In this document: positions 49,459 to 64,000 of the stretch, piece after piece
How the letters are laid out: every line of letters begins with the position of its first letter
Position numbering within the stretch: the first letter of the stretch is position 1
Origin: Coriobacteriia bacterium
Lineage (GTDB): Bacteria > Actinomycetota > Coriobacteriia > Anaerosomatales > JAAXUF01
NCBI GenBank assembly: GCA_013336165.1
Contig: JAAXUF010000010.1
Coordinates: 1-64,000 of the forward strand
Direction: 5' to 3'
DNA length: 64,000 bases
Program-made: the position numbers and the translations under genes
Notes under the pieces: generated by a model
What the model was told of the DNA's origin: nothing
The model's database searches: none
What the model saw: only the letters and a program-made list of their open reading frames with translations

Positions 49459-49466
49459 GGGAGGCG

Positions 49467-49640
49467 ATGGGCGAGATGACGGTACAGGTGAAATGCCCAA
49501 AGTGCGGACTTAAGTCCGCAGAAGTACGTTGCCCGCGCTGCAATACGCTCAAGACGCGGGGCTGCGATGGGGTGTGCTCGGCATGCTTGACCGCGTGCGC
49601 GAAGGAGAAAAGCGTCGCTGACGGGAACTCCACGGCGTGA
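49467..49640 (+). CDS. small Cys-rich zinc-ribbon-like protein after feoB
   Basis: This 57-residue protein starts at ATG 49467 behind GGGGAGG, 8 nt after feoB. It contains CPKCG, CPRCN and then C-D-G-V-C-S-A-C, eight cysteines in all, enough for one or two zinc or iron-sulfur sites. It sits at the position of FeoC in other operons but has no FeoC winged-helix sequence. Likely a metal-binding accessory of FeoAB; that role is inference. Confidence 0.8.
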   Translation: MGEMTVQVKCPKCGLKSAEVRCPRCNTLKTRGCDGVCSACLTACAKEKSVADGNSTA

Positions 49641-49782
49641 ACTGCCTCCGAATGACCAGTGAGATGGTGGGGAAGAGTCAGATCGGCCGCACGTCGGCAG
49701 GTCGAACGATTCGCACGGCGCTGTACTTGCTCTAGGGCCCGTGTCGTATACTGTTTAGGCCGCCAACCTTCACATCAACTTG

Positions 49783-51318
49783 ATGGATGGAGCCCCAGTT
49801 GTCTCTGCTGTCAGTCGCAATCCCTCTGAGTTGTCTATGAGCGACATGGCCGGTGCGATTTCCGATGCGCGTGCGACAGCAACGCGGAAAGAGGGCTCTC
49901 TTCTTGTCATTGGCCTAGTAGGATTCTCCTCATCTCTCACCTGGGTATTCCTCCTTCTCACTACCGCAGCGCCAACGGCCGTCCATTCCTGGTACGAATC
50001 GTGGTTCGTTCGCGTGATCATGATCGCCGGCGCAGCGATAGCGCTCTTTGTCTGCTGGCTTCTTGCGGAGTTCATCTCGCGCAGAAGCTGGTTCTTGCCG
50101 GTTGTCGGACTGTTGGCGTTGTCGAGTTGTTTGGTGTTGCTGTTCCCGTCCCTTGCCGACATTGCCCACGTCGTCTTCTTGGTGTGGGGACTTGCCGGCG
50201 CAGGAGGAGCTTGTGTGTTCCTCCTGTGGGGCGGGTTCTTCTCCGCACATGGGCGCAGCAGGGGTCTGCCTTACTTGGCCGGCAGCGTGTTGCTCGCGAT
50301 GCTCCTCGCCTTGGGAATCTCGTTCCTTGGCCGATCGACCTCATTCGCACTTGCGACAATCCTCGAACTGCTCTCGATGGTAATCCTTGTGTCGTTGCAG
50401 AATCTCTGGCGTTCTTCGTCTCGCGAAGAGATCGAAAGCATCTCAGAGGCGGATGACCGTTCTGGTCCCTCATGGCAATCGGCATTGATGACAGGCGTGT
50501 TCGGTGTCGGCCTCAGCTTCTCGCTCTACTACCTTGTGGAACAAGCACTCCTCACCCCTCGTGTCATGTTCGCTTTGGGTGGTGCGGTGGGCCTCTCCTG
50601 CGTCGTCATACTGTTCGACGCGAGGAAGACCCATGTGATCACGAGAACCCTGCTGCTCAAACTCCTCGCGCCTTGTGTGGCCGTGGGCCTGTTCCCCATG
50701 CCGTTTCTGGGAGTGACAGGACGGGTTCTCTGCAACGCCTTTCTCCTCTTTGTGTTCATGACTCACGTGATCGTGAACCTCGGCGTGGCATCGAAGGAAG
50801 TCGGACTCACGGGACTTTCGCCTGTGCGGGTCTTCAGCATAAGTGGCGTGGCTGGGGCCTTTGGGATGATGGCCGGATGGCTACTGGGTTACGGGACCTT
50901 TCGCGTCGCCGATGGAGCGCTTGTCATCGCCGTGCCAATCGGGCTGATGTGCATGTTCATCCTCATCGCCGCCCTCATCGTGGAAGACCCGTACACCGAC
51001 GGAGTGGCGCTTTCTTCGCCGCGGGGGGACTCGAGCGAGGAGCAGGACGCCGGTCCCTCAAGCTCGCGGGGAAAGAGTCTCTGGAAGCAGCGCTGTTCGA
51101 TGGTCGCAGACCGCTACGGACTCTCGTCTCGCGAGAGTGAGGTGCTTTTCCTGCTGGCCAAGGGCCGTAATGCCGAGTACATCGAAAACAAGCTCTTCAT
51201 CTCGAACCACACGGCGAAAGCCCACATATACAACATCTATCGGAAGACGGGTGTCCATTCGCGTCACGAGTTGATGGACCTGATCGAACGTTTCAACATC
51301 CCGAGAGAGCGAACCTGA
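49783..51318 (+). CDS. polytopic membrane LuxR-family regulator (module 1)
   Basis: About 511 residues, with about 12 hydrophobic spans from residue 40 to 405 in an MFS-like arrangement. A cytoplasmic linker and a C-terminal LuxR helix-turn-helix (YGLSSRESEVLFLLAKGRN, then NHTAKAHIYNIYRKTGVHSR) follow. Membrane LuxR regulators of this type are abundant in Coriobacteriia and usually sit next to the catabolic operon they control. The start is ATG 49783 or TTG 49780, with no clear ribosome binding site; ATG 49837 is another option. The molybdoenzyme module begins 260 nt downstream. Confidence 0.88.
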   Translation: MDGAPVVSAVSRNPSELSMSDMAGAISDARATATRKEGSLLVIGLVGFSSSLTWVFLLLTTAAPTAVHSWYESWFVRVIMIAGAAIALFVCWLLAEFISRRSWFLPVVGLLALSSCLVLLFPSLADIAHVVFLVWGLAGAGGACVFLLWGGFFSAHGRSRGLPYLAGSVLLAMLLALGISFLGRSTSFALATILELLSMVILVSLQNLWRSSSREEIESISEADDRSGPSWQSALMTGVFGVGLSFSLYYLVEQALLTPRVMFALGGAVGLSCVVILFDARKTHVITRTLLLKLLAPCVAVGLFPMPFLGVTGRVLCNAFLLFVFMTHVIVNLGVASKEVGLTGLSPVRVFSISGVAGAFGMMAGWLLGYGTFRVADGALVIAVPIGLMCMFILIAALIVEDPYTDGVALSSPRGDSSEEQDAGPSSSRGKSLWKQRCSMVADRYGLSSRESEVLFLLAKGRNAEYIENKLFISNHTAKAHIYNIYRKTGVHSRHELMDLIERFNIPRERT

Positions 51319-51393
51319 GCAGGCTGCATTCCGCGCCACCGCTCTGCGCATTCTCAAACCCCTTGTACCCTCATTCGTCTTTCTTCAGGCGAC

Positions 51394-51468
51394 AAACCGC
51401 AGTTCAGAGGCCCGACTAAGACTTGGTCACATAGGGCTCATCCCCAAGTCATATATCCGGGTCAATGT
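51394..51468. repeat. 75-bp conserved element upstream of oxidoreductase module 1
   Basis: It aligns without gaps to 56490-56564. The first 19 bases match at 18 positions, CATAGGG in the middle is identical, and the last 23 bases (AAGTCATATATCCGGG and following) match at 22. Both copies lie between a luxR-type gene and a molybdopterin oxidoreductase operon. It is probably a shared promoter or operator; no known site is recognised. Confidence 0.8.
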
Positions 51469-51579
51469 TGTCGGCGACATCGTTGCCTACACTCCTAGCA
51501 ACAGCGGACCGCTAGCGCAGACGATGCCCCGTCCCGGCCAAAAGGCCTGGTGTGGTCGCTCTGCGGAAAGGAAGATGAG

Positions 51580-51828
51580 ATGTGCTTTAGGCCAGCAGAA
51601 GCGGAATTGGGGCCGGTGCAGTGTCCGGGATGCGGGAAGAGGATCAACCGCATCGCGAGACAGCTGCCCAAAGAATGCCCATTCTGCGAGATTTCACTTG
51701 AGAGTCTACAAGAAGCCGCTCCCGGAACTCCCGGTGCTTCAGGAGCACCGAAGGCCCCCGGAGCACCGAAAGCACCAGTAGCGCCGAAGGCCCCCGGAGC
51801 ACCGAAGGCTCCTTCGGCGTCTGAGTAG
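51580..51828 (+). CDS. small zinc-ribbon protein with Pro-Lys-Ala repeat tail
   Basis: 82 residues from ATG 51580 behind GGAAGATGAG. The first 45 residues contain CPGCGK and CPFCE, one zinc-ribbon pair set. The last 35 are low-complexity repeats of GAPKAP and VAPKAP units. The opening MCFRPA resembles small proteins I recall next to molybdoenzyme operons of gut Coriobacteriia, but this is memory and not checked. No function is known. Confidence 0.75.
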   Translation: MCFRPAEAELGPVQCPGCGKRINRIARQLPKECPFCEISLESLQEAAPGTPGASGAPKAPGAPKAPVAPKAPGAPKAPSASE

Positions 51829-51926
51829 CCTTACGCCCCGCGACTGCTCCTCGGAATGACGTGGGGAGAGCCAGGAACCGGTTGTTCAAAGCAGATAAGA
51901 ATCTGAGACAGAGAAGGGAGCATGTG

Positions 51927-54185
51927 ATGTCGGAAAGGATCGTGGACTGTGGTGACGGTGTCATAAAGTTCCGTACCTGCGCGTGGTCGCCTCCAGGCGA
52001 TCATCCGGTAGGGTGCGGCATGTACCTCCACGTGAAGGACGGCAAGGTCGTCAAGGTTGAGGGAGATCCGGAGCATCCCATCACAAACGGGAGACTGTGC
52101 GTTCGCTGCCTGACACTTCCCGAGTATATGTATCACAAGGACCGCATCATCTATCCGATGAAGCGCGCCCGCGAAGACCGCGGCAAAGACAAGTGGGAAC
52201 GCATCACCTGGGATGAGGCCCTCGACATCATCGAGGAGCGCGTGAACCACATCAAGGCCGAGTGGGGCGCCGAGGCGATCGTGGCCTTCCAGGGCACCGG
52301 CCGCGAGGCAACCCTCTACAAGAGTCCTTTGGCGTATGCCGCTTTGGGAACTCCCAACTCGTGCTTCCCGATGAGTGGAGACTCCTGCTACGGACCTCGA
52401 GTCAGTGTTGCAGACTTCCTTCTGGGCGCCGGCTATCCCGAGCTGGACTACGCTGCGTACTTCCCGGATCGCTACGATCACCCGGGCTACGAAGTCCCCA
52501 AGTACATTCTCATGTGGGGCAAGGATCCGTTGTTCTCCAACCCCGACGGTTTCTTCGGCCACGCGATCATCGACCTGATGAAGCGCGGCACGAAGTTCAT
52601 TACGGTCGACCCGCGTCTCACGTGGATCGGCGTCCGGGCCGAGTACCATCTGCAGCTACGTCCCGGCACCGATGCCGCACTTGGCCTCGGTATGCTGAAC
52701 GTCATCATCTCTGAGGATCTCTACGATCACGATTTCGTCGAGAAGTGGTGCTACGGCTTCAAGGCATTGGCCGCGCGCGCTGCCGAGTATGACCTCGACA
52801 CGGTTGAGAAGATCACCTGGGTTCCCAAAGAGACAATCGCAGCCGCCGCGCGGGCGTTTGCAACCAACTCGCCTTCTTCGGCGATGTGGGGTCTCGCAAT
52901 CGACACGAACACCAACGGTGTGCAGGCGGGTCACGCTTTCCTCGCGCTGGTCGCTATCACCGGCAACTTCGATATCCCCGGTGGCGTGACGCTGGCAGTG
53001 CCGGCGAGCTTCATGGGCAAGTGGCGTTATGAGTGCGCCCAGCAGCTTCCTCCGGGCATGATCGAGAAGCAGATCACCGACCCCAAGTACGTCGGCTTCA
53101 CTGCCGCTCATGTCATCGCGCACCCCGACTGCATTCTGGACACGTTGGAGACGGAGAAGCCTTATCCGCTCAAGATGGCATGGTTCTACTCGTCCAACTT
53201 GCTGGCCAACACATCAGCGGCTCAGCCGAAGCGTTGGTACGACGCCCTGAAGAGACTCGAGTTCAACGTCGTGAACGATCTCTTCATGACCCCCACGGCG
53301 ATGGCGCTATGCGACCTCTTCCTGCCGATGTCCACCTTCGCCGAGCACGACGGTATCGTCCTGCCGCACTTCGGCCGTAACACCCACGCGGTCATGGCCA
53401 TGAACAAGGCGGTCACCGTTGGTGAGTGCATCTCGGACCTTGAGCTCGACTTCCTGGTCGGCAAGCGTCTCAATCCCAAGGCATGGCCCTGGGAGACAGT
53501 CTCGGACTTCTTCACCGAGCAGATCAAGCCGTCGTTGGGAGTCACGTTCCCTGAGTTCCAGGACATCGGCGTCATCCAGCAGAAGTTCGAGTACAAGAAG
53601 TACGAGAAAGGCCTCCTGAGATCAGACGGTGAGCCAGGCTTCAACACGCCGACAGGAATGATCGAGCTCAAGTCGAGCTTGTACCCGGGTTGGGGCGAAG
53701 ACGCGCTCCCGTATTTCGAGGAGCCTGTCTACAGCCAGATCAGCAAGCCCGAAGATGCCGAGAGGTACCCCCTGGTCATGACCACAGGCGGCAGGAACAC
53801 GGCCTCCTTCCATTCGGAGCACCGTCAGATCGCGTCGCTTCGCGCCATCACACCCGATGCCATCGTTCAGATTCATCCCGATACGGCCGCCGCATACGGC
53901 ATCGAAGAGGGCGACTGGGTGCTGATCGAGAATCAGCTCGGGTGCGGTATTGAGAAGGCCCATCTTTCGCCCATCGTCGATCCTCGCGTCGTTCACGCGG
54001 CGCACGGCTGGTGGTACCCGGAGCAGGAGGGCGAGGAGCCCAACCTCTTCGGTGTCTGGAAGTCGAGCATCAACAGCATGATCCCCCACAAGACCATCGG
54101 AAAGCTCGGCTTCGGCGCGCCCTACAAGAATGTGATGTGCCAAATCCGCAAGGTTGATAGTTTCGAGATCCCCGTCGAGGATTAG
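51927..54185 (+). CDS. molybdopterin oxidoreductase, DMSO-reductase family (module 1)
   Basis: 752 residues. No Tat signal is present, so it should be cytoplasmic. The N-terminal cluster region has Cys18, Cys30, Cys58 and Cys61, but where its paralogue has Cys41 this protein has Asp25 (SPPGDHPVGC), an atypical set. Cys154 in SGDSCYGPR may be the metal ligand. The core (WERITWDEALDIIEE, RPGTDAALGLGMLNVII) resembles the acetylene hydratase and aromatic hydroxylase/dehydroxylase group. The C-terminal molybdopterin-binding domain ends with VVHAAHGWWYPE. Substrate unknown. The start is ATG 51927 behind AGGGAG; the ferredoxin gene follows 15 nt after its stop. Confidence 0.88.
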   Translation: MSERIVDCGDGVIKFRTCAWSPPGDHPVGCGMYLHVKDGKVVKVEGDPEHPITNGRLCVRCLTLPEYMYHKDRIIYPMKRAREDRGKDKWERITWDEALDIIEERVNHIKAEWGAEAIVAFQGTGREATLYKSPLAYAALGTPNSCFPMSGDSCYGPRVSVADFLLGAGYPELDYAAYFPDRYDHPGYEVPKYILMWGKDPLFSNPDGFFGHAIIDLMKRGTKFITVDPRLTWIGVRAEYHLQLRPGTDAALGLGMLNVIISEDLYDHDFVEKWCYGFKALAARAAEYDLDTVEKITWVPKETIAAAARAFATNSPSSAMWGLAIDTNTNGVQAGHAFLALVAITGNFDIPGGVTLAVPASFMGKWRYECAQQLPPGMIEKQITDPKYVGFTAAHVIAHPDCILDTLETEKPYPLKMAWFYSSNLLANTSAAQPKRWYDALKRLEFNVVNDLFMTPTAMALCDLFLPMSTFAEHDGIVLPHFGRNTHAVMAMNKAVTVGECISDLELDFLVGKRLNPKAWPWETVSDFFTEQIKPSLGVTFPEFQDIGVIQQKFEYKKYEKGLLRSDGEPGFNTPTGMIELKSSLYPGWGEDALPYFEEPVYSQISKPEDAERYPLVMTTGGRNTASFHSEHRQIASLRAITPDAIVQIHPDTAAAYGIEEGDWVLIENQLGCGIEKAHLSPIVDPRVVHAAHGWWYPEQEGEEPNLFGVWKSSINSMIPHKTIGKLGFGAPYKNVMCQIRKVDSFEIPVED

Positions 54186-54200
54186 AGAAGGAGGTATCCT

Positions 54201-54533
54201 GTGAAAACCCATGGATTGCTGATCGACTACAAGTACTGCACTGGTTGCCATGCCTGTGAGGTGTCGTGCCGCAACGAACACGATATCCCCCTCGAAGAGT
54301 GGGGCATCCGGCTTACCCAAATGGGCCCCATGAAGCTCGGTGGCAAGTGGACATGGAACTATGTGCCTGTTCCGACCGACCTCTGTGACTTGTGCATTGA
54401 CAGGACTGAGGCCGGGAAGCTGCCCGCATGCGTGCTTCATTGTCTGGGCAACTGTATGGAAGTTGTGCCTGTGGAGGAGATCTCTGCGAAGATGGCCGAG
54501 AAGGGCGATACGGTCGTCTGCTTCATCCCCTAG
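54201..54533 (+). CDS. 4Fe-4S ferredoxin-type electron transfer subunit (module 1)
   Basis: This 110-residue protein has two cluster-binding sets: CTGCHACEVSC at residues 13-23 and CDLC plus CVLHCLGNC in the second half. It is the size and type of a small DmsB-like subunit that feeds electrons to a molybdopterin enzyme. The start is GTG 54201 behind GGAGG, directly after the oxidoreductase gene. A Rho-independent terminator follows. Confidence 0.9.
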   Translation: MKTHGLLIDYKYCTGCHACEVSCRNEHDIPLEEWGIRLTQMGPMKLGGKWTWNYVPVPTDLCDLCIDRTEAGKLPACVLHCLGNCMEVVPVEEISAKMAEKGDTVVCFIP

Positions 54534-54556
54534 TCGCTGCTGAGTGCTCCAACTCG

Positions 54557-54587
54557 AACCGGTCGGGGGTTTGCCCCCGGCCGGTTT
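54557..54587 (+). terminator. Rho-independent terminator after module 1
   Basis: AACCGG-T-CGGGGG (54557-54569) pairs with CCCCCG-G-CCGGTT (54574-54586) around a 4-base loop, with one G-U pair, and is followed by TTCC. It is 23 nt after the ferredoxin stop. Confidence 0.85.
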
Positions 54588-54792
54588 CCTGCTTGGATGA
54601 TGAGGAGCCATACCGCTGAGTGAGAGTTGGCTATCCCCGGCGGACAGTCCACAGCAGGCTCCAAGGATCCAAGCGGGGCATGTGGGGCCGAGAAGGTTCG
54701 TGAGGCACGGTATTCGCTCATGCGAAAGACGCCTTCTCGGAGTCGTATCGCGCTGTCGCATCGAGGAGACCGATCCCCGTGAAGCCGATACG

Positions 54793-54818
54793 TAGGCACG
54801 TTGCCTAGGCAGTACAAT
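54793..54818 (+). promoter_or_regulatory. palindrome and -10-like element upstream of the second LuxR regulator
   Basis: TAGGCA-CGT-TGCCTA (54793-54807) is a perfect inverted repeat, followed by TACAAT at 54813-54818. It is 54 nt before the regulator start. No matching -35 is clear. The palindrome suggests control by a dimeric regulator, perhaps the LuxR protein itself. The rest of the 338-base gap (54534-54871) holds only the terminator. Confidence 0.45.
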
Positions 54819-54871
54819 CTTTATGTCATGCACTGAAGCCAGAGGGAACTTCTTTCGGTAACGGAGACCCA

Positions 54872-56299
54872 ATGAGAGAACCCGTCAGTCCGCACGGTTC
54901 GTTCTTGACCGACTGGAAGTCCCTGACTGAGGTCGACAAGTGGTCGACGAACTTGCTTTTCAGCTTGGGCTTGATTGGATACTCTCTTTGCTCTACGTGG
55001 TCCCTCTTGCTGTATTACTCTCCCGCTCCAATAACTGCGACGGCATCAGGGCAGTCTCTGCAACAGCTGTGCCGTATCACGTTTCTCTCTTTTCTCACAT
55101 TGACCTTTGTAGTGATATGGTTGCTCTCTAAAAGAATGACATCAAAGAAGAGAGCAACCATATTCTCCGTAATACCGTTTGCAATTGCTATCATAACATG
55201 CGCTATTCTACTTGTTCCTAAGGTGGGCGCACCATTTGTTATTATTGCATGGGGAATATCAGGCATAGGATACGCATGTTTAGTGCTCAATTGGGTGCAC
55301 TTTCTCGGATCTATGGATCGTGGGCGTCTGGATCTGTATGCAATCACTACAACTATCATATCTGGTACGCTCTACATCATAGTTTCATATATGCAGTACA
55401 CTCCTCTGATAATTGCGATCTCTGTTATAGCGATGCTCTCGGCATCCCTCTGCGGGTTTCTATCGGGGAAGCTTCCGGCAATACCGGTATCAAGAGATAC
55501 TCCAAAGAAAGCTAGAGCGCTGATTGCAGGCAAACCGTTTTTGTCGTCACTGATCTACAGTATTGCAATGGGATTGGCAGGCAGTTCTGCTATCGGGTTC
55601 GTATCGGCATACGGCGCCTTGTTCATTGGGATGAGTATTGTCGCAGCGGGGTTCTTCATTGCATTTGCAAGCAGGAGATTCGGCAAGAACCTCAAGCCCT
55701 TAATGGCCAGATGGACCATTCCATTCATAACGCTCACGATACTGCCGATGCCGTTCGTAAACGCCCCAGGCAGGTTCGCATGTTCGTGCGTTCTTCTCGC
55801 GGCGTGCTTCTGCCGATCAATCGTGAATCGCCAAGCCCAAGTACTGGTCGTCAGTCGCTCAGGCTACTCGCTGGGGGCATTTTCTTACGGAAGACTTGCC
55901 AATGTCATTGGTGCGCTGATCGGCTGGGTTCTAGGGTACTTGGCGTTCTCCGGCGCTGCCAGAACCAATGAGATGGCAGTCGTGATCATCATCTCAACGG
56001 CTGCCCTATTCGTAGTATTCGGCACGTTCATCATCTCCGACTATTTTCCCGCGCAGCAGGAACCCAAGGACGGAAAAGGTCGCTGCGAGCAGATCGCGGA
56101 GCAATTCGGTCTGTCGGAAAGACAGCTCGAAGTGATGACGCTGCTTGCTAAGGGCAGGGACACGGAGTACATCACCGAGGCCTTGGTGCTGTCAAACCAC
56201 ACGGTCCGCACCCACATCTATGCAATCTACAAAAAGCTGAATGTGCACTCGAAGCAGGAGCTGCTCGACATCATCGAAGGGGAACAGGCGAAGGAGTAG
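54872..56299 (+). CDS. polytopic membrane LuxR-family regulator (module 2)
   Basis: 475 residues. About 12 hydrophobic spans fill residues 25-390, and the C-terminal LuxR helix-turn-helix reads FGLSERQLEVMTLLAKGRD, then NHTVRTHIYAIYKKLNVHSK. It is a paralogue of the regulator at 49783. The first 200 codons are clearly more A+T-rich and use rarer codons than the flanking oxidoreductases, a possible sign of a different origin. The start is ATG 54872 behind CGGAGA. It probably controls the operon starting at 56763. Confidence 0.9.
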   Translation: MREPVSPHGSFLTDWKSLTEVDKWSTNLLFSLGLIGYSLCSTWSLLLYYSPAPITATASGQSLQQLCRITFLSFLTLTFVVIWLLSKRMTSKKRATIFSVIPFAIAIITCAILLVPKVGAPFVIIAWGISGIGYACLVLNWVHFLGSMDRGRLDLYAITTTIISGTLYIIVSYMQYTPLIIAISVIAMLSASLCGFLSGKLPAIPVSRDTPKKARALIAGKPFLSSLIYSIAMGLAGSSAIGFVSAYGALFIGMSIVAAGFFIAFASRRFGKNLKPLMARWTIPFITLTILPMPFVNAPGRFACSCVLLAACFCRSIVNRQAQVLVVSRSGYSLGAFSYGRLANVIGALIGWVLGYLAFSGAARTNEMAVVIIISTAALFVVFGTFIISDYFPAQQEPKDGKGRCEQIAEQFGLSERQLEVMTLLAKGRDTEYITEALVLSNHTVRTHIYAIYKKLNVHSKQELLDIIEGEQAKE

Positions 56300-56489
56300 G
56301 GACTCTTCGAGACGTCTGGTTTGGGCAGCGACTCTGCAACGTAGCAGCCCCGGTTGTGCCGAGGCGGGCAGCGCGCCCGGACGGCAGTGTGTGGCATATG
56401 GCCCCGCCTTCCACGCATCTGCGTGCATGCCGTACTCCGCTCCGTGATCACGCCCAGCAGACCCATCATCTCATTCTCATCTGACCATA

Positions 56490-56564
56490 AAACCGCAGGT
56501 CAGAGGCCTAAGTAATACTCTATCGCATAGGGTCATCAATCAAGTCATATATCCGGGGCAATGT
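56490..56564. repeat. 75-bp conserved element upstream of oxidoreductase module 2
   Basis: It is the partner of 51394-51468, with the same length and no gaps. Conserved blocks are AAACCGCAG-N-TCAGAGGCC, CATAGGG and AAGTCATATATCCGGG. CTAT-CGC-ATAG within it is a short inverted repeat found only in this copy. It begins 191 nt after the regulator stop and ends 198 nt before the oxidoreductase start. The rest of the gap (56300-56762) shows no gene. Confidence 0.8.
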
Positions 56565-56762
56565 CCCCGCGGTCGAAGCTGAGTAGGATCACGTCGGCGT
56601 CAGGAAGCAGTTCCTCGCGCTTTCTCGAAGTCAGGGCACAACGAGCGTTTCCGGAAGAGAAGACGCCAGTCGTTGTCTGTACGCATCGTCGGGAGAGGAG
56701 GCAAGGGCTGGCATCGCAAACGTGCGGCGTTCATCTGAGTGTAATTTCGAAAGGAGAGCGGA

Positions 56763-59135
56763 ATGGCAGATTACAAGGAGTTTCTCGAGACTCTCAACCG
56801 TAAGGCTTATCACGAAGGCGAGTGGCGTTGGAAAGAGGGAGACCTCACCGTTACTCGCACGAACCACTGGTCACCCCCTGGCTGTCACAACGGCTGCGGC
56901 ATTCTCCTCTTCACCGACGAGAACGAGAAGCTCGTCGGAATTGAAGGCGATCCGCTTGCGCCGTTCAACGGTGGGAAGCTTTGCATGCGCTGCCTCGACA
57001 TGGTCGAAGCAGTCAACAACCCATCGCGCCTGAAGTACCCCATGCGTCGCGCCGGCGAGCGTGGCGAGAACAAGTGGGAGCGCATCTCTTGGGATGACGC
57101 AGTCGCCGAGATCGTAGAGAAGACGAATGCGGTCAAGAAGGAATACGGCTCGAACTCGATTGCGCTCGTGCATGGGACTGGCCGCAACATCGGCTGGCAG
57201 CTTCCGTACTTCGCCTCGGCCGGCCTCGAGACTCCGAACGTCTCGAACTTCGGCTTCACGGGTTTTGCCTGCTATCTGCCGCGCATGATCGGCGCTTCGG
57301 CAAAGATGGGCGAGATGACGATCATCGACGTCTCGGAGGGCCACGAGGATCGGTACGCGAGCGAGAAGTTCGTTGCACCCGAAGTCGTCATGGTCTGGGG
57401 CAACGAGCCGCTGAAGTCAAACGCCGACGGCTTCCTCGGACACTGGATTGTCCAGTGCATGCAGATGGGAACGAAGATCATCTCGATCGACCCTCGTCTG
57501 ACGTGGCTTGGCTCGCGGGCCGAGTACTTCCTACAGGTTCGCCCCGGCACGGACGCGGCTCTGGGTATGGCGCTGCTCAACGTGATCATCACCGAGGACC
57601 TTGTCGATCATGAGTTCATCGACAACTGGTGCTTCGGCTACGAGCAGCTTGTCGAGTCCATCCAGGACAAGACTCCGGAGTGGGCGGCTGAAGTGTGCGG
57701 TCTCGACGTTGACGATATCGTTGGCGCGGCGCGCATGTACGCCAACGCGAGCAGCGCCTCGATTCAGTGGGGGCTTGCGTTCGAGCAGCAGATATCTGCT
57801 CTCGGCGTGACTTCTGCGGCATGCGATCTCATGGCCATCACCGGAAACGTTGACAACCCGGGTGGCAACTTGCTCATCAAGTGCGCGTTCGACATCGAGA
57901 AGCGCTACGGCCTCGGTGACGACCTGATTCCGAGAGACGTATATGCCAAGAAGCTGACCTCTTCGGCTGGTATCGAGAATTCGGACATCGTCTCCTGCGC
58001 GGCATCTGACACCATTCTGCATGCTGTCGAAACAGGGGAGCCGTATCCCATCAAGATGATGTGGATCCAGAGCGGAAACCCGCTGGCCTGTTCTGCGATG
58101 GATGCCCCTCGCATCCTCGAGGCAATCAGGAGCATCGATTTCGTAGTCGTGGCCGATCCGTTCATGACCCCGACCGCAGTCGCTTGCGCCGACATCGTAC
58201 TTCCCGTCGCCATGAGCTGCGAACGCAACTCCGTTCGCACGTGGTGGACTCCGGCCCGCTCCATCTCCAAGTGCTCGAGCTACTACGAGGCAAAATCGGA
58301 TGAGGATATCGTTCTGACGATCGGCAAGGCGCTTGTTCCCGACAACTGGCCTTGGAAAGACGACAAGGAATTCTCCACTTGGTATCTCACTGACCAACGT
58401 GCCAAGAACGGAACCACGTACGAAGGCGACTTCGAGGAGCTTCAGGCTCGGGGCGGGTTCAAGTACTGGGACTGGGACGCCACGTATAAGAAGTACGAGA
58501 AGGGCATGTGCCGTGAGGACGGAGCCTTGGGCTTCGATACTCCGACCGGGCGCTTCGAGCTCTGGTCGTATGGATACGTCCACTGGGGTGTCGATCCGAT
58601 GCCGTATCACATTGAGCCCAAAGATGGCCCTGCCAATCCCGAGATGTTCAAGGATTACCCCATCATCGCGACGTGCGGTGGCCGCTCCTACGAGTTCTTC
58701 CACAGCGAGAACCGTCAGCTTCCCACGATGCGCGAGTTCCATCCGGATCCGCTCGTCATGATCAACCCCAGTACCGCAGCCGAGTACGACATCAGCGAAG
58801 GCGACTGGATTTGGATCGAGAGCCCCCACGGTCGATTCAGGCAGAAGGCGACCCTGTTCGTAGGCATCAAGCCAGGTGTCGTGCACGCCGAGCACGGTTG
58901 GTGGTTCCCGGAGAAAGAGGCCGCTGAGCCGGTTCTCTTCGGTACGTTCGACTCGAATCCGAACAACCTGACCAAGGCGTTTGAGACCGGTCAAGGCGGT
59001 ATCGGTTCCGGCATCAAGAGCTTCCTGGTTCGTGTCTACAAGTGCCAAGAAGGCGACACGATGCCAGGCGAGCAGGTAACGAGACTCGGCGGATTCGGCG
59101 ACTACGTCCGTGGCGAAACCCGTGGGCAGAGATAG
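56763..59135 (+). CDS. molybdopterin oxidoreductase, DMSO-reductase family (module 2)
   Basis: 790 residues; no signal peptide. The cluster region has Cys41 and Cys45 (CHNGC) with Cys74 and Cys77 (LCMRC). Cys170-region FACYLPRM may hold the metal ligand. The middle (WERISWDDAVAEIVEK, RPGTDAALGMALLNVIITEDL) parallels acetylene-hydratase-like and aromatic-transforming molybdenum or tungsten enzymes. It is a paralogue of the module 1 enzyme, with a longer N-terminus. The start is ATG 56763 behind AAAGGAG. Reaction unknown; downstream MmgE/PrpD and MFS genes suggest organic-acid or aromatic catabolism. Confidence 0.9.
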   Translation: MADYKEFLETLNRKAYHEGEWRWKEGDLTVTRTNHWSPPGCHNGCGILLFTDENEKLVGIEGDPLAPFNGGKLCMRCLDMVEAVNNPSRLKYPMRRAGERGENKWERISWDDAVAEIVEKTNAVKKEYGSNSIALVHGTGRNIGWQLPYFASAGLETPNVSNFGFTGFACYLPRMIGASAKMGEMTIIDVSEGHEDRYASEKFVAPEVVMVWGNEPLKSNADGFLGHWIVQCMQMGTKIISIDPRLTWLGSRAEYFLQVRPGTDAALGMALLNVIITEDLVDHEFIDNWCFGYEQLVESIQDKTPEWAAEVCGLDVDDIVGAARMYANASSASIQWGLAFEQQISALGVTSAACDLMAITGNVDNPGGNLLIKCAFDIEKRYGLGDDLIPRDVYAKKLTSSAGIENSDIVSCAASDTILHAVETGEPYPIKMMWIQSGNPLACSAMDAPRILEAIRSIDFVVVADPFMTPTAVACADIVLPVAMSCERNSVRTWWTPARSISKCSSYYEAKSDEDIVLTIGKALVPDNWPWKDDKEFSTWYLTDQRAKNGTTYEGDFEELQARGGFKYWDWDATYKKYEKGMCREDGALGFDTPTGRFELWSYGYVHWGVDPMPYHIEPKDGPANPEMFKDYPIIATCGGRSYEFFHSENRQLPTMREFHPDPLVMINPSTAAEYDISEGDWIWIESPHGRFRQKATLFVGIKPGVVHAEHGWWFPEKEAAEPVLFGTFDSNPNNLTKAFETGQGGIGSGIKSFLVRVYKCQEGDTMPGEQVTRLGGFGDYVRGETRGQR

Positions 59136-59146
59136 GAGGCGTAAAC

Positions 59147-59485
59147 ATGAAGGGAATTCTCGTCAATTACGAGTACTGCACCGGCTGCCACAGCTGTGAG
59201 GTGGCTTGCAAGAAGCATCTCGATCTGCCGAAGGGCGAATTCGGCATCAAGCTTACAGAGACCGGACCCTGGAAGTACGAGGCGACGGAGCAGGCCGGTA
59301 CGTGGGAGTGGAGTTACCTTCCCGTGCTGACCAAGGCGTGCGACATGTGCGAGGACCGTGTGGCCGAGGGCAAGATGCCGATGTGCGTACAGCACTGCCA
59401 GGCCTGGTGCATGTATCACGGCGAAGTTGAGGACCTTGCCAAGAAGCTCGACGGCAAAACTCGCTGGGCGCTTCTCACCCGCTAG
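59147..59485 (+). CDS. 4Fe-4S ferredoxin-type electron transfer subunit (module 2)
   Basis: 112 residues from ATG 59147 behind AGGAGG, 11 nt after the oxidoreductase. It has CTGCHSCEVAC near the N-terminus and CDMC plus CVQHCQAWC later, two 4Fe-4S sites. It is a clear paralogue of the module 1 ferredoxin and is the probable redox partner of the upstream enzyme. Confidence 0.92.
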   Translation: MKGILVNYEYCTGCHSCEVACKKHLDLPKGEFGIKLTETGPWKYEATEQAGTWEWSYLPVLTKACDMCEDRVAEGKMPMCVQHCQAWCMYHGEVEDLAKKLDGKTRWALLTR

Positions 59486-59507
59486 GCGTCACGACTCTTG
59501 GAGATGC

Positions 59508-59543
59508 TGAGCTCCTGTCCATCAGGAGGTGGATAGGAGCTCA
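59508..59543 (+). promoter_or_regulatory. hairpin with an AGGAGG loop between ferredoxin and PrpD genes
   Basis: TGAGCTCCTGTCCA (59508-59521) pairs with TGGATAGGAGCTCA (59530-59543), 14 pairs including one G-U, around the loop TCAGGAGG. No T-tract follows, so it is not a standard terminator. It could stabilise or process the transcript, or control PrpD translation. The real PrpD ribosome binding site is separate, at about 59563-59572. Confidence 0.65.
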
Positions 59544-59576
59544 GCTCCGGAAGATCGAGTACGGGAGGAGGAAGAA

Positions 59577-60956
59577 GTGAACGTCACGGAACAGGTATGC
59601 AAGCATCTTGTGGAAACCGGGTTCGATTCTATCGACGCCAAGGCGATCGCACGTGCGAAGGTCAGGATTCTGGACTCACTTGGCGTCATCGCTGCTGGCG
59701 CGCGTGCCCCGGGGTGCGGAGAACTGGTTGAGTTGGCGACTCGTTGGGGCGGGCAAGGCGAATCCACAGTCTTGGTTCATGGCCTCAAGGTGCCGGCCCA
59801 CAATGCGGCAATGGTCAACAGCATGATGATGCGCTCCTTCGATTTCGAGGCTATTGAAGCTGAAGGAGAGAATCATACGAGCAGCGCGGCGCACATCAGC
59901 GGCACTACGGTACCGGTTGCTCTCGCAGTCGCGGAGAAGCAGAGGGCAAGCGGCAAAGAGCTGCTCGCGGCGCTTGCACTCGGTGACGATCTCACGGCTA
60001 GACTCGGATCGGCATCGGGGTTCGACGTCTACGGAGGTTGGGACAACACCGGGACGATGAACGCGCTTGGCGCGACCGCTGTAGCCGGTAGGCTTCTCGG
60101 TCTTAATACCGTCCAACTCGACCAGGCGCTCGGAATAGTCGAGAACCAGCTCTCGGGAGTCATTGACAACATCGATGACAAGACCATGAGTTTCAAGCTT
60201 CCGATGTGTCTGTCCGCGCGCAACGCGATCTTCTCTGCCGAGTTTGCCCAGATGGGGTTCACGGCAATGCGCGACGCGATCGGCGGGTCCCACGGGTTCT
60301 TCAAGATGTACTGCGGGAACCCCGATCCCGAGAAGCTCATGAGGGGTCTTGGAGAGATCTACTACGCGGATTGCGTAATCAAGCCTTGGTCGGCCTGTCG
60401 TGCCACCCACCCGGCAATCAACGCCTGCGTCGAAATCGTTACGCAGAACAGCGTAGACGTCGAAGACATTGAAGCAGTGGTCATTCACGTCACTCCTCGT
60501 ACCCTGAAGGGCTTCGTCGGGCAGCCCTTTGAGATGGGCGATACACCGCAAATCAGTGGGGCCTTCAGCATTCGATTCGCTTCTGCCAACGCGATTCTGC
60601 GCAAGACGGTGCGCCCGGAGCATTTCGCTCCTGAAATGATGAATCAACCCGAACTGACGGCGCTCTTGGACAAGATCACGCTGGTCGACAGTCTGGAGCC
60701 TGCGGAGTATCTGACGGCGAACGTCGAGGTGAAAATGAAGGACGGCGCAGTCTACTTCGCCAGGACTGAAGTCCCTAAGGGCGACATCTTCAAGAATCCG
60801 ATGAGCTATGAAGAGATTGTTGACAAATATCGTCTGAATCTGAAGTTCACACAGACGATATCAGATCAAGTTGCAGAAGAGGCCAAAGATCTTGTCGAGA
60901 ATATGGAGGAATTAAACGACATAGGGAAATTGATAAGTCTCTTTGGAGCAAAATAA
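59577..60956 (+). CDS. MmgE/PrpD-family protein
   Basis: 459 residues from GTG 59577 behind GGGAGGAGG. The MmgE/PrpD family includes 2-methylcitrate dehydratase, cis-aconitate decarboxylase and iminodisuccinate epimerase. Visible family features are KVRILDSLGVIAAGA, HNAAMVNSMMMRSFDFE, EGENHTSSAAHISG, GGSHGFF and KPWSACRATHPAINAC, which contains the usual active-site region. The reaction probably involves a dicarboxylate or tricarboxylate, but the substrate is not readable. It follows the module 2 ferredoxin and precedes two transporters. The last 40 codons are A+T-richer than the rest. Confidence 0.92.
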   Translation: MNVTEQVCKHLVETGFDSIDAKAIARAKVRILDSLGVIAAGARAPGCGELVELATRWGGQGESTVLVHGLKVPAHNAAMVNSMMMRSFDFEAIEAEGENHTSSAAHISGTTVPVALAVAEKQRASGKELLAALALGDDLTARLGSASGFDVYGGWDNTGTMNALGATAVAGRLLGLNTVQLDQALGIVENQLSGVIDNIDDKTMSFKLPMCLSARNAIFSAEFAQMGFTAMRDAIGGSHGFFKMYCGNPDPEKLMRGLGEIYYADCVIKPWSACRATHPAINACVEIVTQNSVDVEDIEAVVIHVTPRTLKGFVGQPFEMGDTPQISGAFSIRFASANAILRKTVRPEHFAPEMMNQPELTALLDKITLVDSLEPAEYLTANVEVKMKDGAVYFARTEVPKGDIFKNPMSYEEIVDKYRLNLKFTQTISDQVAEEAKDLVENMEELNDIGKLISLFGAK

Positions 60957-60985
60957 CAACTGTCGATGCTTAGAAGGGGTGTCTG

Positions 60986-62209
60986 ATGGAGAAGGATCCA
61001 GAAGTGAAGACGTCGGTTGCTGACGTAATCAAGAAGAACTATGGTTTTGGGGTGCAAGCCGCCGCGTTAGCGGTCATCACGTTCCAGTACGCGAAGGGCT
61101 TCTCGACGCCAGCCCTTGGCGCGATCACAAAGGCATTTCCGAACGTCCCCGTCGAGACGGTCAAGCAGATCGAGAGTCTCCCGTCTCTGATGGCGATCTT
61201 CGGCGCAATCGCCGTGGGTGTGCTTGAGCGCTTCATGAAGAAGAGGACGATCCTGTGGATCGCCATGCTCTGCACGTTGCTCGGCGGCATCGCACCTGCT
61301 TTCTTGAACGACATCAACAGCATTCTGATTGCTCGTATCGTGCTCGGTTTTGGGCGAGGCATGATCTTCCCGATGTCAAGCTCGTTCATCGCGGACCTGT
61401 TCTCGGGCGATGTACGTGATCGGCTAATGGGATACAAGACCGCTGTGGGCGCGTTGTCGGGATCGGCATTCCAGCTCATCGGTGGAGCGCTCGCCGTCAT
61501 GTCTTGGAGATACACGTTCATCGCCTATCTGTTCATCGTTCCGATCATCCTGCTTGTAGCGATCAAGCTGCCTGAACCTGATGTGAAGCCCATACCCGTG
61601 GGGTCGGGTAGGGCCCAGATGTCCATGTGGGTTTGGGTAATCATCATCTGGGCTGGTGTCTACAACTTCTTCCAGTTCTCGATGTTCACCAACATGGCAA
61701 TTACGGTTGCAAAGACCAAGCTCGGAACCGCTGCGCTGTCCGGAACCCTGCTGACAACGGTTACCTTGTCGTCAGCGGTTGGCGCAACGCTATACGGTTA
61801 CATCCGGAAGTACACGAAAGGGTTTGAACTCCCGGCGTCTGTCGTCCTTGTGGCAACAGGATTCCTCATCCTTGTTACGAAGGTCAGCATTCCTAACTAC
61901 TACTTTGGTGCAATCGTCTGGGGCCTTGGCTTCGGCATCTTCAACCCAGCCCTCATCATGGCCACGGTTAGGGCACTGCCGCGCGAGTCTGCGACGATGG
62001 GACTGTCGATTCTCGCTGGAGTTCAGAACGGTGGTCAGTACCTCTCCTCGTTCGTTCTGGTCTTCCTTGGCGGTCTTGCCGGAGTCTCAGGAACACTTGC
62101 CGGTTGGCAGATTTCCTGGGTGGGTTGCTACGTCATGGCGGCCTTAGCGTTGGTAGGCATCTTGTACATAAACGGAAAGACCAAGAACAACCCAGAACTA
62201 GTCGCCTAG
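60986..62209 (+). CDS. MFS transporter
   Basis: This 407-residue protein has 12 predicted membrane spans and the intracellular loop signature FGRGMIFPMSSSFIADLFSGDVRDR between spans 4 and 5 (in two parts, GRGMIFP and RDRLMGY). The major facilitator family moves small organic solutes by proton symport or antiport. It starts 29 nt after the PrpD gene and likely carries that pathway's substrate. The start is ATG 60986 behind AAGGGG. Confidence 0.92.
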   Translation: MEKDPEVKTSVADVIKKNYGFGVQAAALAVITFQYAKGFSTPALGAITKAFPNVPVETVKQIESLPSLMAIFGAIAVGVLERFMKKRTILWIAMLCTLLGGIAPAFLNDINSILIARIVLGFGRGMIFPMSSSFIADLFSGDVRDRLMGYKTAVGALSGSAFQLIGGALAVMSWRYTFIAYLFIVPIILLVAIKLPEPDVKPIPVGSGRAQMSMWVWVIIIWAGVYNFFQFSMFTNMAITVAKTKLGTAALSGTLLTTVTLSSAVGATLYGYIRKYTKGFELPASVVLVATGFLILVTKVSIPNYYFGAIVWGLGFGIFNPALIMATVRALPRESATMGLSILAGVQNGGQYLSSFVLVFLGGLAGVSGTLAGWQISWVGCYVMAALALVGILYINGKTKNNPELVA

Positions 62210-62225
62210 CCTCTCTGAGGCTAGG
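62205..62225 (+). terminator. hairpin at the end of the first MFS gene
   Basis: CCTAGCCTC (62205-62213) pairs with GAGGCTAGG (62217-62225) around TCT. The left arm overlaps the stop codon. There is no T-tract, so termination is weakly supported; it may protect the 3' end. Confidence 0.45.
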
Positions 62226-62244
62226 AAGCTCTCCTAGGATATAG

Positions 62245-62287
62245 TTGTGCCCGCTGGCCGAGTGTTCGACGCGGGCAGCGGGCACAA
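62245..62287 (+). promoter_or_regulatory. 12-bp stem hairpin between the two MFS genes
   Basis: TTGTGCCCGCTG (62245-62256) and CAGCGGGCACAA (62276-62287) are perfect complements around a 19-base loop, followed by a T/C-rich stretch. It could be a terminator or attenuator separating the two transporters. Confidence 0.55.
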
Positions 62288-62352
62288 CTCGTTCTTCTGC
62301 TGCGTGGCCACAAGTGAATCAGCCAGCCAATCTGACAGATGGGCAGAACAGT

Positions 62353-63636
62353 ATGTGCGCAGTCGAGGGAAGCCGATCCGTACGGAAGATTCACTATGCG
62401 TGGATCATAATGATCGGCTGTTGTTTTCTGCAGGCCGGTGGGATCGGCGCTGCGATGGATTCGGCGGGTGTGTTCTTTGTGCCGGTGTGCACGGCGCTCG
62501 GGTTCACAAGGGCGGAACTCTCGACGTACTTGACCGCATATTTCATCGGGACAACTTTGGCCATGCCGTTCGTGGGCAAGTATCTTACCAAGCTGAACTT
62601 GCGCCTGATCATGAGCATCTGTGCCGTCTTGGTTGCCGGAGCGATAGCCCTCATGGGAACGTATACACAGGTCTGGCAATGGCAACTCTCGGGTCTGGTG
62701 CTTGGTCTTGCGGGTTCCTGCATCTTCATTCTTCCGGCTGCAAGCATGATATGCAACTGGTTTTCGAAGAAGCGCGGCATAGCATACGGCGTCGTGACGT
62801 CCTTCTCAGGAATAGGTGCAGCGGTATTTGCACCGCTACTGAACTACTACATCTCCGCATTTGGCTGGCGGATTGCCTATGGCATTGCGGGTCTAATCTG
62901 TATTGCGTGCATCCTTCCGTGGACACTGTTTGTGTTTCGCTTGCGGCCTGAAGACATGGGCATGAAACCCTATGGGTATGAAGAGACCTCCGAAGACAGC
63001 GGTTCAGTGCAACGTCACGGGATATCTTTCGCCAGAGCTTGGAAATCAGTCTCTTTCATAGCCCTATTCGTCTTTGGAGGTGTCGTTGCTGCCTATCACG
63101 GCATCAATCCCCACCTGCCAGGGTTTGCACAATCGATTGGCTACAGTGCGGCCACGGGGGCGCTTCTGATATCTGCAATCTCTATTGGAAGCATTGCGGA
63201 TAGATTGTTGATGGGTGTTCTCAACGATAGGTGGGGGGTTCAGAAGACTACACTGCTACAACTGGTGGTAGTCTCGATGGGACTACTAGGCTTCATGTCC
63301 CTCATCATATTCCGAATCCCTATCAGCAGTGCCCAGTACGTAATACTAGTGGCAGCACTGTTCTTTGGTGTTCATGACTCATTGATGTCGGTGAGCATAC
63401 CGTTGCTTATTCGACAGATATTTGGATCAAAGGACTACACGGCTATTCACGCGAACATACGCGTTGGAGTCGGTCTATTTGGCGCGGGCGCTCCAGTAGC
63501 AGTTGGTTATCTATATGACACGACAGGTGGCTTCGTCGGAGCGTTTGCGGGCCTGATCGCGGTTAGCATCCTAGGCGCGCTCCTCATCGTAATTGCCTAC
63601 ATCGGTAGAAGACTTTTGACGTTCGATCCAGTGTAG
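62353..63636 (+). CDS. MFS transporter, oxalate/formate antiporter-like
   Basis: About 427 residues from ATG 62353. It has 12 spans and begins KIHYAWIIMIGCCFLQAGG, a typical start of the OFA-like MFS proteins, followed by the loop FSKKRGIAYGVVTSFSG. Such proteins exchange organic anions. There is no strong ribosome binding site; the frame is open further upstream but without membrane sequence. The start of this gene is duplicated at 63734-63784. Sequence near the end is richer in A+T than its neighbours. Confidence 0.9.
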   Translation: MCAVEGSRSVRKIHYAWIIMIGCCFLQAGGIGAAMDSAGVFFVPVCTALGFTRAELSTYLTAYFIGTTLAMPFVGKYLTKLNLRLIMSICAVLVAGAIALMGTYTQVWQWQLSGLVLGLAGSCIFILPAASMICNWFSKKRGIAYGVVTSFSGIGAAVFAPLLNYYISAFGWRIAYGIAGLICIACILPWTLFVFRLRPEDMGMKPYGYEETSEDSGSVQRHGISFARAWKSVSFIALFVFGGVVAAYHGINPHLPGFAQSIGYSAATGALLISAISIGSIADRLLMGVLNDRWGVQKTTLLQLVVVSMGLLGFMSLIIFRIPISSAQYVILVAALFFGVHDSLMSVSIPLLIRQIFGSKDYTAIHANIRVGVGLFGAGAPVAVGYLYDTTGGFVGAFAGLIAVSILGALLIVIAYIGRRLLTFDPV

Positions 63637-63694
63637 AAGGTCGCTTTTCGTCTCTATCTCGGCCACTGCCTCTCTTCGACGGGTGGTAGACAGC

Positions 63695-63805
63695 ATGCGC
63701 ACAAACAGCGCGTGGCATTCCATGCGTAAGCCCCACTATGCTTGGGCGATAATGATCGGCTGTTGTTTCCTGCAGGCAGGTGGGCTGGAAGCGCCTGGTC
63801 TTTGA
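63695..63805 (+). pseudogene. remnant of an MFS transporter start
   Basis: A 36-codon open frame encodes KPHYAWAIMIGCCFLQAGG, nearly identical to the start of the MFS protein at 62353. It then breaks off into LEAPGL and a stop. The 51-base stretch 63734-63784 parallels 62392-62442. The rest of the gene is missing, so this is a truncated duplicate or the relic of a deleted third transporter. Confidence 0.75.
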
Positions 63806-64000
63806 TTAGCTGACACGCAGCCGAGGACTCTGAGAGCTCCTGTGAGCGTCAAGGAACCGGCACCGCAGCTCCACTGCTACGCGAGCCCGACGTGAAGGGC
63901 TCGATCATGTAGGCGTATGCCGGGAATAGGCCATTTTGCCCGATACTGACGGGCGACTTCCTACTGTTGGTGTGATGGCGGAGCGCACGGTCTTCTGGGA
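63806..64000. other. right-hand end without a clear gene
   Basis: No recognisable gene. An ATG at 63975 (MAERTVFW) opens a frame that leaves the window, but it has no ribosome binding site and too few codons to judge. Confidence 0.4.

Follow-up and report, generated by a model that had tools for sequence, protein, structure and literature searches.

Do the two molybdenum (Mo) enzyme genes at positions 49,783–63,636 of a Coriobacteriia bacterium contig (JAAXUF010000010.1) belong to two separate modules or to one pathway, and what chemistry might they perform? The stretch that we analysed, hereafter the window, is 64,000 nucleotides (nt) long and represents contig C10 of a 28-contig, 1.99-Mb genome. 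An original prediction made from its letters had described two parallel modules; orthologues of both instead form one contiguous set in six other loci. We consider it probable that the genes constitute a single Gordonibacter-type catechol-dehydroxylase pathway cassette, which would reductively remove two hydroxyls from a catechol-type carboxylic acid, probably of plant origin, that the cell imports and uses as an anaerobic electron acceptor. The genes and elements are as follows:

49780..51318, + strand: R1, membrane LuxR-type regulator, about 12 spans with a C-terminal helix-turn-helix (HTH) (Pfam GerE 5e-13; 12 hydrophobic segments; AlphaFold pLDDT 82.9; Foldseek MFS fold)
51394..51468, + strand: 75-bp element, copy 1, probable shared promoter/operator (repeat of copy 2; 19-nt core)
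51580..51828, + strand: MCFRP small protein, 82 amino acids (aa), zinc ribbon (two CxxC) with a Gly-Ala-Pro-rich tail, leader gene of E1 (orthologous open reading frames (ORFs), alignment, genome-wide matches)
51927..54185, + strand: E1, cytoplasmic Mo-enzyme assigned to the catechol-dehydroxylase clade, 752 aa (Pfam, trees, signature motif)
54201..54533, + strand: F1, small two-cluster 4Fe-4S electron-transfer subunit (Pfam Fer4_11 7.7e-6; 8 cluster cysteines)
54872..56299, + strand: R2, second membrane LuxR-type regulator (Pfam GerE 5.6e-16; about 12 spans)
56490..56563, + strand: 75-bp element, copy 2 (repeat of copy 1; 19-nt core)
56763..59135, + strand: E2, cytoplasmic Mo-enzyme assigned to the catechol-dehydroxylase clade, 790 aa (Pfam, trees, motif; orthologues 74–77%)
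59147..59485, + strand: F2, small two-cluster 4Fe-4S electron-transfer subunit (weak Fer4_11/Fer4_2 below the curated cut-off; orthologues of about 70–74% beside each cassette E2)
59529..60956, + strand: PrpD, MmgE/PrpD-family enzyme, alignment-conserved start near 59577 (MmgE_PrpD_N 8.4e-50; model pLDDT 93.1; Foldseek best match cis-aconitate decarboxylase; co-occurrence with E2)
60986..62209, + strand: MFS1 transporter (Pfam MFS_1 2.4e-25; conserved position)
62245..63636, + strand: MFS2 transporter, monocarboxylate/bile-salt/oxalate-formate-like (Pfam MFS_1 4.3e-34; NCBIfam SfMCT 3e-29, below cut-off)

Both sets comprise, in the order first described, a membrane LuxR, a 75-bp element, a cytoplasmic Mo-enzyme and a two-cluster ferredoxin, with F1 and F2 each carrying the eight cysteines of two 4Fe-4S clusters. 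Pfam and gene order likewise confirm an MmgE/PrpD gene and two MFS genes after the second enzyme. The 82-aa zinc-ribbon ORF between element 1 and E1 had been overlooked.

E1 and E2 are 40% identical to each other, and both contain the Mo-bis-MGD domains of the DMSO-reductase superfamily (Pfam Molybdopterin and Molydop_binding). No twin-arginine motif occurs near the E2 N-terminus, and the sole RR in the reading frame of E1 precedes the likely start codon, the ATG at 51927, in agreement with the claim that twin-arginine translocation (Tat) signals are absent. Lack of a Tat signal, a separate small 4Fe-4S subunit and the absence of a membrane anchor gene are traits of the Gordonibacter-type enzymes. 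For phylogeny we used four references, picked by genomic context and position: two Mo-enzymes of an eam-like cluster at locus L081, read as urolithin dehydroxylases (Eadh) (an amidohydrolase between two Mo-enzymes, two MFS genes and a LuxR gene, matched to PMC12771579), and a tandem pair near 2.586 Mb, taken as the enterolactone dehydroxylases (+)-Eldh1/2 from the locus tags GPA_25800/25810 (PMC11887054). A likelihood tree groups E1, E2 and all four references in one clade of 22 rows (100/99), acetylene hydratase lying outside; E2 is nested with Eldh (100/99) and E1 stands on the Eadh side (94/97), and a 64-row tree agrees with this placement. Two other assignments were discarded: E1/E2 as (+)-Eldh1/2 themselves, ruled out by a locus-tag position that indicates another pair (PMC11887054), and, as Eah, an amidohydrolase that Gordonibacter-like genomes encode some 27 kb away from the cassette, dropped for the copy between two Mo-enzymes.

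The clade has an N-terminal motif, (W/Y)S-x-PG-C-H...C, kept as PG(C/D/E/S)H, together with an aligned Mo-ligand Cys. The motif reads PGCH in E2 and PGDH, PGEH or PGSH in E1 and its closest kin, a substitution that suggests loss of an Fe-S cluster, or its ligation by Asp, in the catalytic subunit. Close relatives of E1 at L088:4685-7006, L092:7610-9922 and L001:8135-10543 lack one or both of the N-terminal cluster cysteines. Acetylene hydratase (2e7z), whose Asp13 is catalytic, shares with E1 and E2 the superfamily and the aligned Mo-ligand Cys, and differs in its Asp13/CxxC motif, which neither enzyme keeps. It is the closest solved structure to both, which fits the published kinship in which catechol dehydroxylases are its nearest kin (PMC7028382). 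As judged from sequence, E1 and E2 are members of the catechol-dehydroxylase clade and neither is an acetylene hydratase, because that enzyme falls outside the clade and its CxxCD is replaced by PGCH or PGDH. CxxCD is retained in an acetylene-hydratase-like protein of another Coriobacteriia genome, G346 (L071:3-2015; about 50% identical over 497 columns). The pyrogallol-phloroglucinol transhydroxylase large subunit is matched weakly by E1 (2.2e-9, over a part) and not by E2 at 1e-3. Structure matches and trees together bear out the original assignment to the acetylene-hydratase/aromatic side of the DMSO-reductase family, and the phylogenetic check it had proposed, against dehydroxylases, transhydroxylase and acetylene hydratase, leads to a clade whose known reaction, catechol dehydroxylation, is a related rather than an unrelated one.

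Across 398 genomes of the class Coriobacteriia, E2 orthologues (74–77% identity) occur in eight genomes besides that of the window. At six loci (L043, L044, L045, L047, L049 and L050), E1 orthologues (74–76%) and F1 stand back to back with E2, F2, MFS1 and MFS2. We call the genomes with related cassettes Eggerthellaceae-like, as their many dehydroxylase paralogues suggest; PrpD (53–55%) is present in five of these six loci. Three further loci, truncated where their contigs stop, show the same arrangement in the part that remains (E2-F2-PrpD-MFS1-MFS2 in L052, F2-PrpD-MFS1-MFS2 in L125 and F2-PrpD-MFS1 in L006). A PrpD of at least 48% identity is found in 8/8 non-window genomes with E2 (at least 74%) versus 2/389 others (Fisher p = 3e-15, uncorrected for kinship), and PrpD homologues adjoin Mo-enzymes elsewhere in G374 and G220. 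A PrpD scan of one named genome returned two loci, one on the same contig as G391:C294 and the other a deltaproteobacterial PrpD (34%) without an adjoining Mo-enzyme. Because the E1/E2 orthologues are contiguous in six loci and PrpD tracks E2 across genomes, we read the E1, E2 and PrpD gene set, from these sequence comparisons, as a single pathway unit. The earlier assumption of two independent adjoining modules, each with its own regulator and substrate, draws on the separate membrane LuxR of each enzyme in the window and on G220, where about 110 kb separate the E1 orthologue from that of E2; it is made quite improbable by the back-to-back arrangement, by the same promoter element ahead of both enzymes and by the PrpD homologue that stands beside the E1 orthologue even in G220.

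Almost no other genome of the order to which the window belongs has the gene set, and the cassette proteins are 74–77% identical to the Eggerthellaceae-like ones, a similarity equal to that of the highly conserved GyrB (73%); horizontal gain followed by rearrangement in the window genome is probably the simplest reading. An Eggerthellaceae contaminant cassette joined to the contig during assembly is a rival reading; in its favour, such an enzyme occurs (at E 1e-120) in no more than 2 of the order's 69 genomes, the assembly has 28 contigs and the cassette is at a contig end. However, contig C10 bears the dnaA/gyrB region, which places the cassette some 40 kb from the probable origin; the contig also carries gyrA/gyrB, recF, dnaN, dnaA, yidC and parAB (named by eye; GyrB confirmed by comparison), and this GyrB is 82–85% identical within its own family and 73% to the Eggerthellaceae-like genomes. 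As the proteins reach no more than 74–77% identity to those of the nearest cassettes, other contigs of the same genome carry three more relatives of E1/E2, and contamination is 0.26%, we regard such an artefact as very improbable. Beyond MFS2, the contig continues with a decayed third MFS copy and then another MCFRP ORF at 64095-64352, just before the end of the contig (63716-64352, L004; partly beyond the window), where a further module probably begins:

63716..63805, + strand: third MFS gene remnant, duplicate of the MFS2 start (82% DNA repeat; short open frame only)

The PrpD protein has both MmgE/PrpD superfamily domains and the corresponding fold (Pfam; structure model). The closest structural matches of its model (pLDDT 93) are the cis-aconitate decarboxylases of human, mouse and Bacillus, and iminodisuccinate epimerase (TM-score 0.81–0.88, Foldseek), with which it shares the fold and the residues D85, H102, K203, K265 and H274 at about 23% identity. 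In Bacillus IRG1, the site is lined by D91, H102, K200, K266, C271 and H151, and docking places His151 where it holds the leaving carboxylate (PMC7347537). Of this site, PrpD retains the acidic residue, the catalytic His, the two Lys and the Cys; of the two catalytic histidines expected of a cis-aconitate decarboxylase (H102 and H151), H102 is kept and H151 is replaced by Asp152. Asp occupies the latter position in most, not all, of 25 aligned PrpD proteins. Because the IRG1 site is mostly kept and His151 is changed to Asp, the active site appears to argue for a carboxylate substrate and a reaction other than itaconate formation. This supports the suggestion that the PrpD neighbour points to an acid.

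The same enzyme invites a different account, in which the Mo-enzymes are not aromatic dehydroxylases: they would act, like a hydratase/dehydratase or a transhydroxylase, on an aliphatic acid, either unsaturated or hydroxylated, and PrpD would perform the main catabolic step. The structural neighbours of PrpD act on cis-aconitate, iminodisuccinate and methylcitrate, acetylene hydratase scores 282 and 244 bits against the two enzymes, and most clusters of the clade are uncharacterised (PMC11585353). We find this account unlikely, given that acetylene hydratase lies outside the clade with its own Coriobacteriia relative, that CxxCD has become PGCH/PGDH, that transhydroxylase similarity is weak or missing, and that the members with a characterised reaction, on either side of the clade, are catechol dehydroxylases.

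R1 and R2 each have about 12 hydrophobic spans by hydropathy and a C-terminal LuxR HTH, and stand near Mo-enzymes, the arrangement (10–12 N-terminal spans, a C-terminal LuxR HTH, a Mo or flavin enzyme nearby) of the 12-transmembrane (12-TM) LuxR regulators. Of these, DadR, HcdR and CadR, which also have a Mo-enzyme alongside, activate in response to their substrates (PMC9734109). The R1 model matches the MFS transporters GLUT3, SV2A, VMAT and OxlT (TMt up to 0.69 among the 50 matches listed), and so its sensor domain appears, in this predicted model, to have a transporter fold to which the LuxR HTH is joined, in line with the earlier remark that the 12-span regulators look like transporters. 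MFS is not mentioned in the main text on DadR, HcdR and CadR (PMC9734109). The other cassettes (L043-L049) have a soluble LuxR-HTH protein of 139–170 aa beside F1 instead of a membrane LuxR; for this reason the window's 12-span regulators probably joined the cassette separately, with one promoter element in common.

The 19-nt core of the 75-bp element occurs exactly at only two sites in the whole genome, and shuffling gives a mean expectation of 0.05 in the window when as many as 3 mismatches are tolerated. On another contig, three copies of the core with one mismatch each lie about 2 kb apart (G000:C6:69034, 71188 and 73712). Pattern searches with 19 and 16 nt found no copy of the element in the other cassettes; in the Eggerthellaceae loci, the regions upstream of E1 and E2 share the same divergent intergenic DNA. 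A sigma-70 and terminator scan of the region upstream of E1 found none, and a scan of 49000–64000 at the Rfam gathering threshold gave no match.

The leader gene encodes a protein that starts MCFRPA, with two CxxC motifs and a Gly-Ala-Pro-rich tail; no Pfam model reaches its cut-off for it, and we found no such leader protein in the literature searched. Its orthologues lie upstream of E1 in 6/6 cassettes read and upstream of E2 in five; there is none before E2 in the window. The copy at E2 of G361, which we take to be G. pamelaeae DSM 19378, comes from the genome-wide search. Homologues recur beside Mo-dehydroxylase genes in Coriobacteriia (L014-L016, L019, L043-L050, L087, L092, L094 and L130), with 20–30 matches per Gordonibacter-like genome; in four genomes, 26 of 56 strong matches adjoin a Mo-enzyme of this type, versus about 1% expected. 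Our guess is that the protein might help in maturation or in Fe-S/Mo insertion.

How could these parts work together? An MFS permease would import a catechol- or pyrogallol-type carboxylic acid, which the membrane LuxR activators R1 and R2 would detect, switching on the shared 75-bp promoters. The soluble Mo-bis-MGD enzymes E1-F1 and E2-F2 would receive electrons through their two-cluster ferredoxin subunits and each reductively remove one aromatic hydroxyl, the substrate being the electron acceptor. The PrpD-family enzyme may isomerise, dehydrate or decarboxylate the acid part in a single non-redox step, and the other MFS carrier may export the product or exchange it for substrate. The sequences and models themselves establish the gene content, its conservation as a unit, the clade placement, the active-site motifs and the MFS-like fold predicted for R1; the reductive dehydroxylation, the step order, the division of labour and the exact substrate are our inference. 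The original idea of a new anaerobic catabolic pathway is thereby modified: use as an electron acceptor through reductive dehydroxylation, as in relatives (PMC7028382, PMC11585353), is more likely.

The published relatives are cytoplasmic, ferredoxin-paired, MFS-adjacent and LuxR-controlled dehydroxylases, some of which support respiration (PMC7028382, PMC9734109, PMC11585353, PMC12771579, PMC11887054). With the Gordonibacter-type enzymes (Dodh, Cldh/(-)-Eddh, Gp Hcdh, Gs Vadh and (+)-Eldh1/2), the window shares a soluble Mo-enzyme without Tat, an adjoining 4Fe-4S subunit, a nearby MFS and no membrane anchor (PMC7028382, PMC11585353, PMC11887054), and in several cases a membrane LuxR regulator; it differs in its PrpD partner, the lost E1 cysteine and an identity of at most 51% to the inferred references. 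Two site-selective enzymes on one substrate have precedents in Eadh1/2 (PMC12771579) and Eldh1/2 (PMC11887054). The eam cluster (Eah, Eadh1 and Eadh2; ellagic acid to urolithin C) likewise combines two Mo-dehydroxylases, MFS, LuxR and one non-redox enzyme (PMC12771579; candidate L081), but in eam the last is of the amidohydrolase/decarboxylase type and in the window it has a PrpD fold, and E1/E2 are 38–43% identical to the candidate Eadh enzymes.

Several observations weigh against a catechol-dehydroxylase cassette. No characterised dehydroxylase cluster that we located contains a PrpD, the literature search found no link between MmgE/PrpD and such clusters, and the known substrates of the PrpD family are aliphatic polycarboxylates. 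The E1 lineage lacks a cysteine kept by nearly all of the clade. The best identities to the inferred references, themselves recognised by context and position rather than accession, are about 51% (E2-Eldh) and 43% (E1-Eadh), far below the 72% at which isofunctional clusters of these dehydroxylases are defined (PMC11585353); the substrate cannot be read off because no reference reaches that value.

A more elaborate version of the cassette reading, which we hold to be possible though rather doubtful, is that the locus encodes an undescribed polyphenol pathway, in which a PrpD-fold enzyme with a changed active site would catalyse a new non-redox reaction of a catecholic polyacid, either ahead of two Mo dehydroxylations or between them, aided by MCFRP as a new family of small zinc-ribbon proteins and governed by MFS-fold sensor-regulators, and which would also operate in Gordonibacter-type gut bacteria. 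URO-D-family genes, possible O-demethylation methyltransferases, lie near MFS2 or downstream in five loci (L043:16933-17985; L045:18812-19831; L047:17420-18472 and 18607-19716; L052:9056-11279; L125:1532-3805) and beside other E2-type clusters; we speculate that the natural substrate may arrive methoxylated.

A conserved two-dehydroxylase cassette with a PrpD partner is present across Coriobacteriia, and the literature searched links it to no substrate. In 2024, only 5 of the 126 sequence clusters of catechol dehydroxylases had a known substrate (PMC11585353); a few more have followed (PMC11887054, PMC12771579). The conserved pair of enzymes and the distinctive third enzyme limit the candidate substrates to carboxylated catechols, possibly ones from which two hydroxyls must be taken off. 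Because orthologues of the cassette appear to be present in Gordonibacter, for which gene knock-out and expression tools exist (PMC9734109, PMC11585353, PMC11887054), the matter is open to direct experiment. Finally, the predicted MFS-like fold of the membrane LuxR provides a structural hypothesis to explain how a single genome's more than 70 regulators could recognise distinct small molecules.

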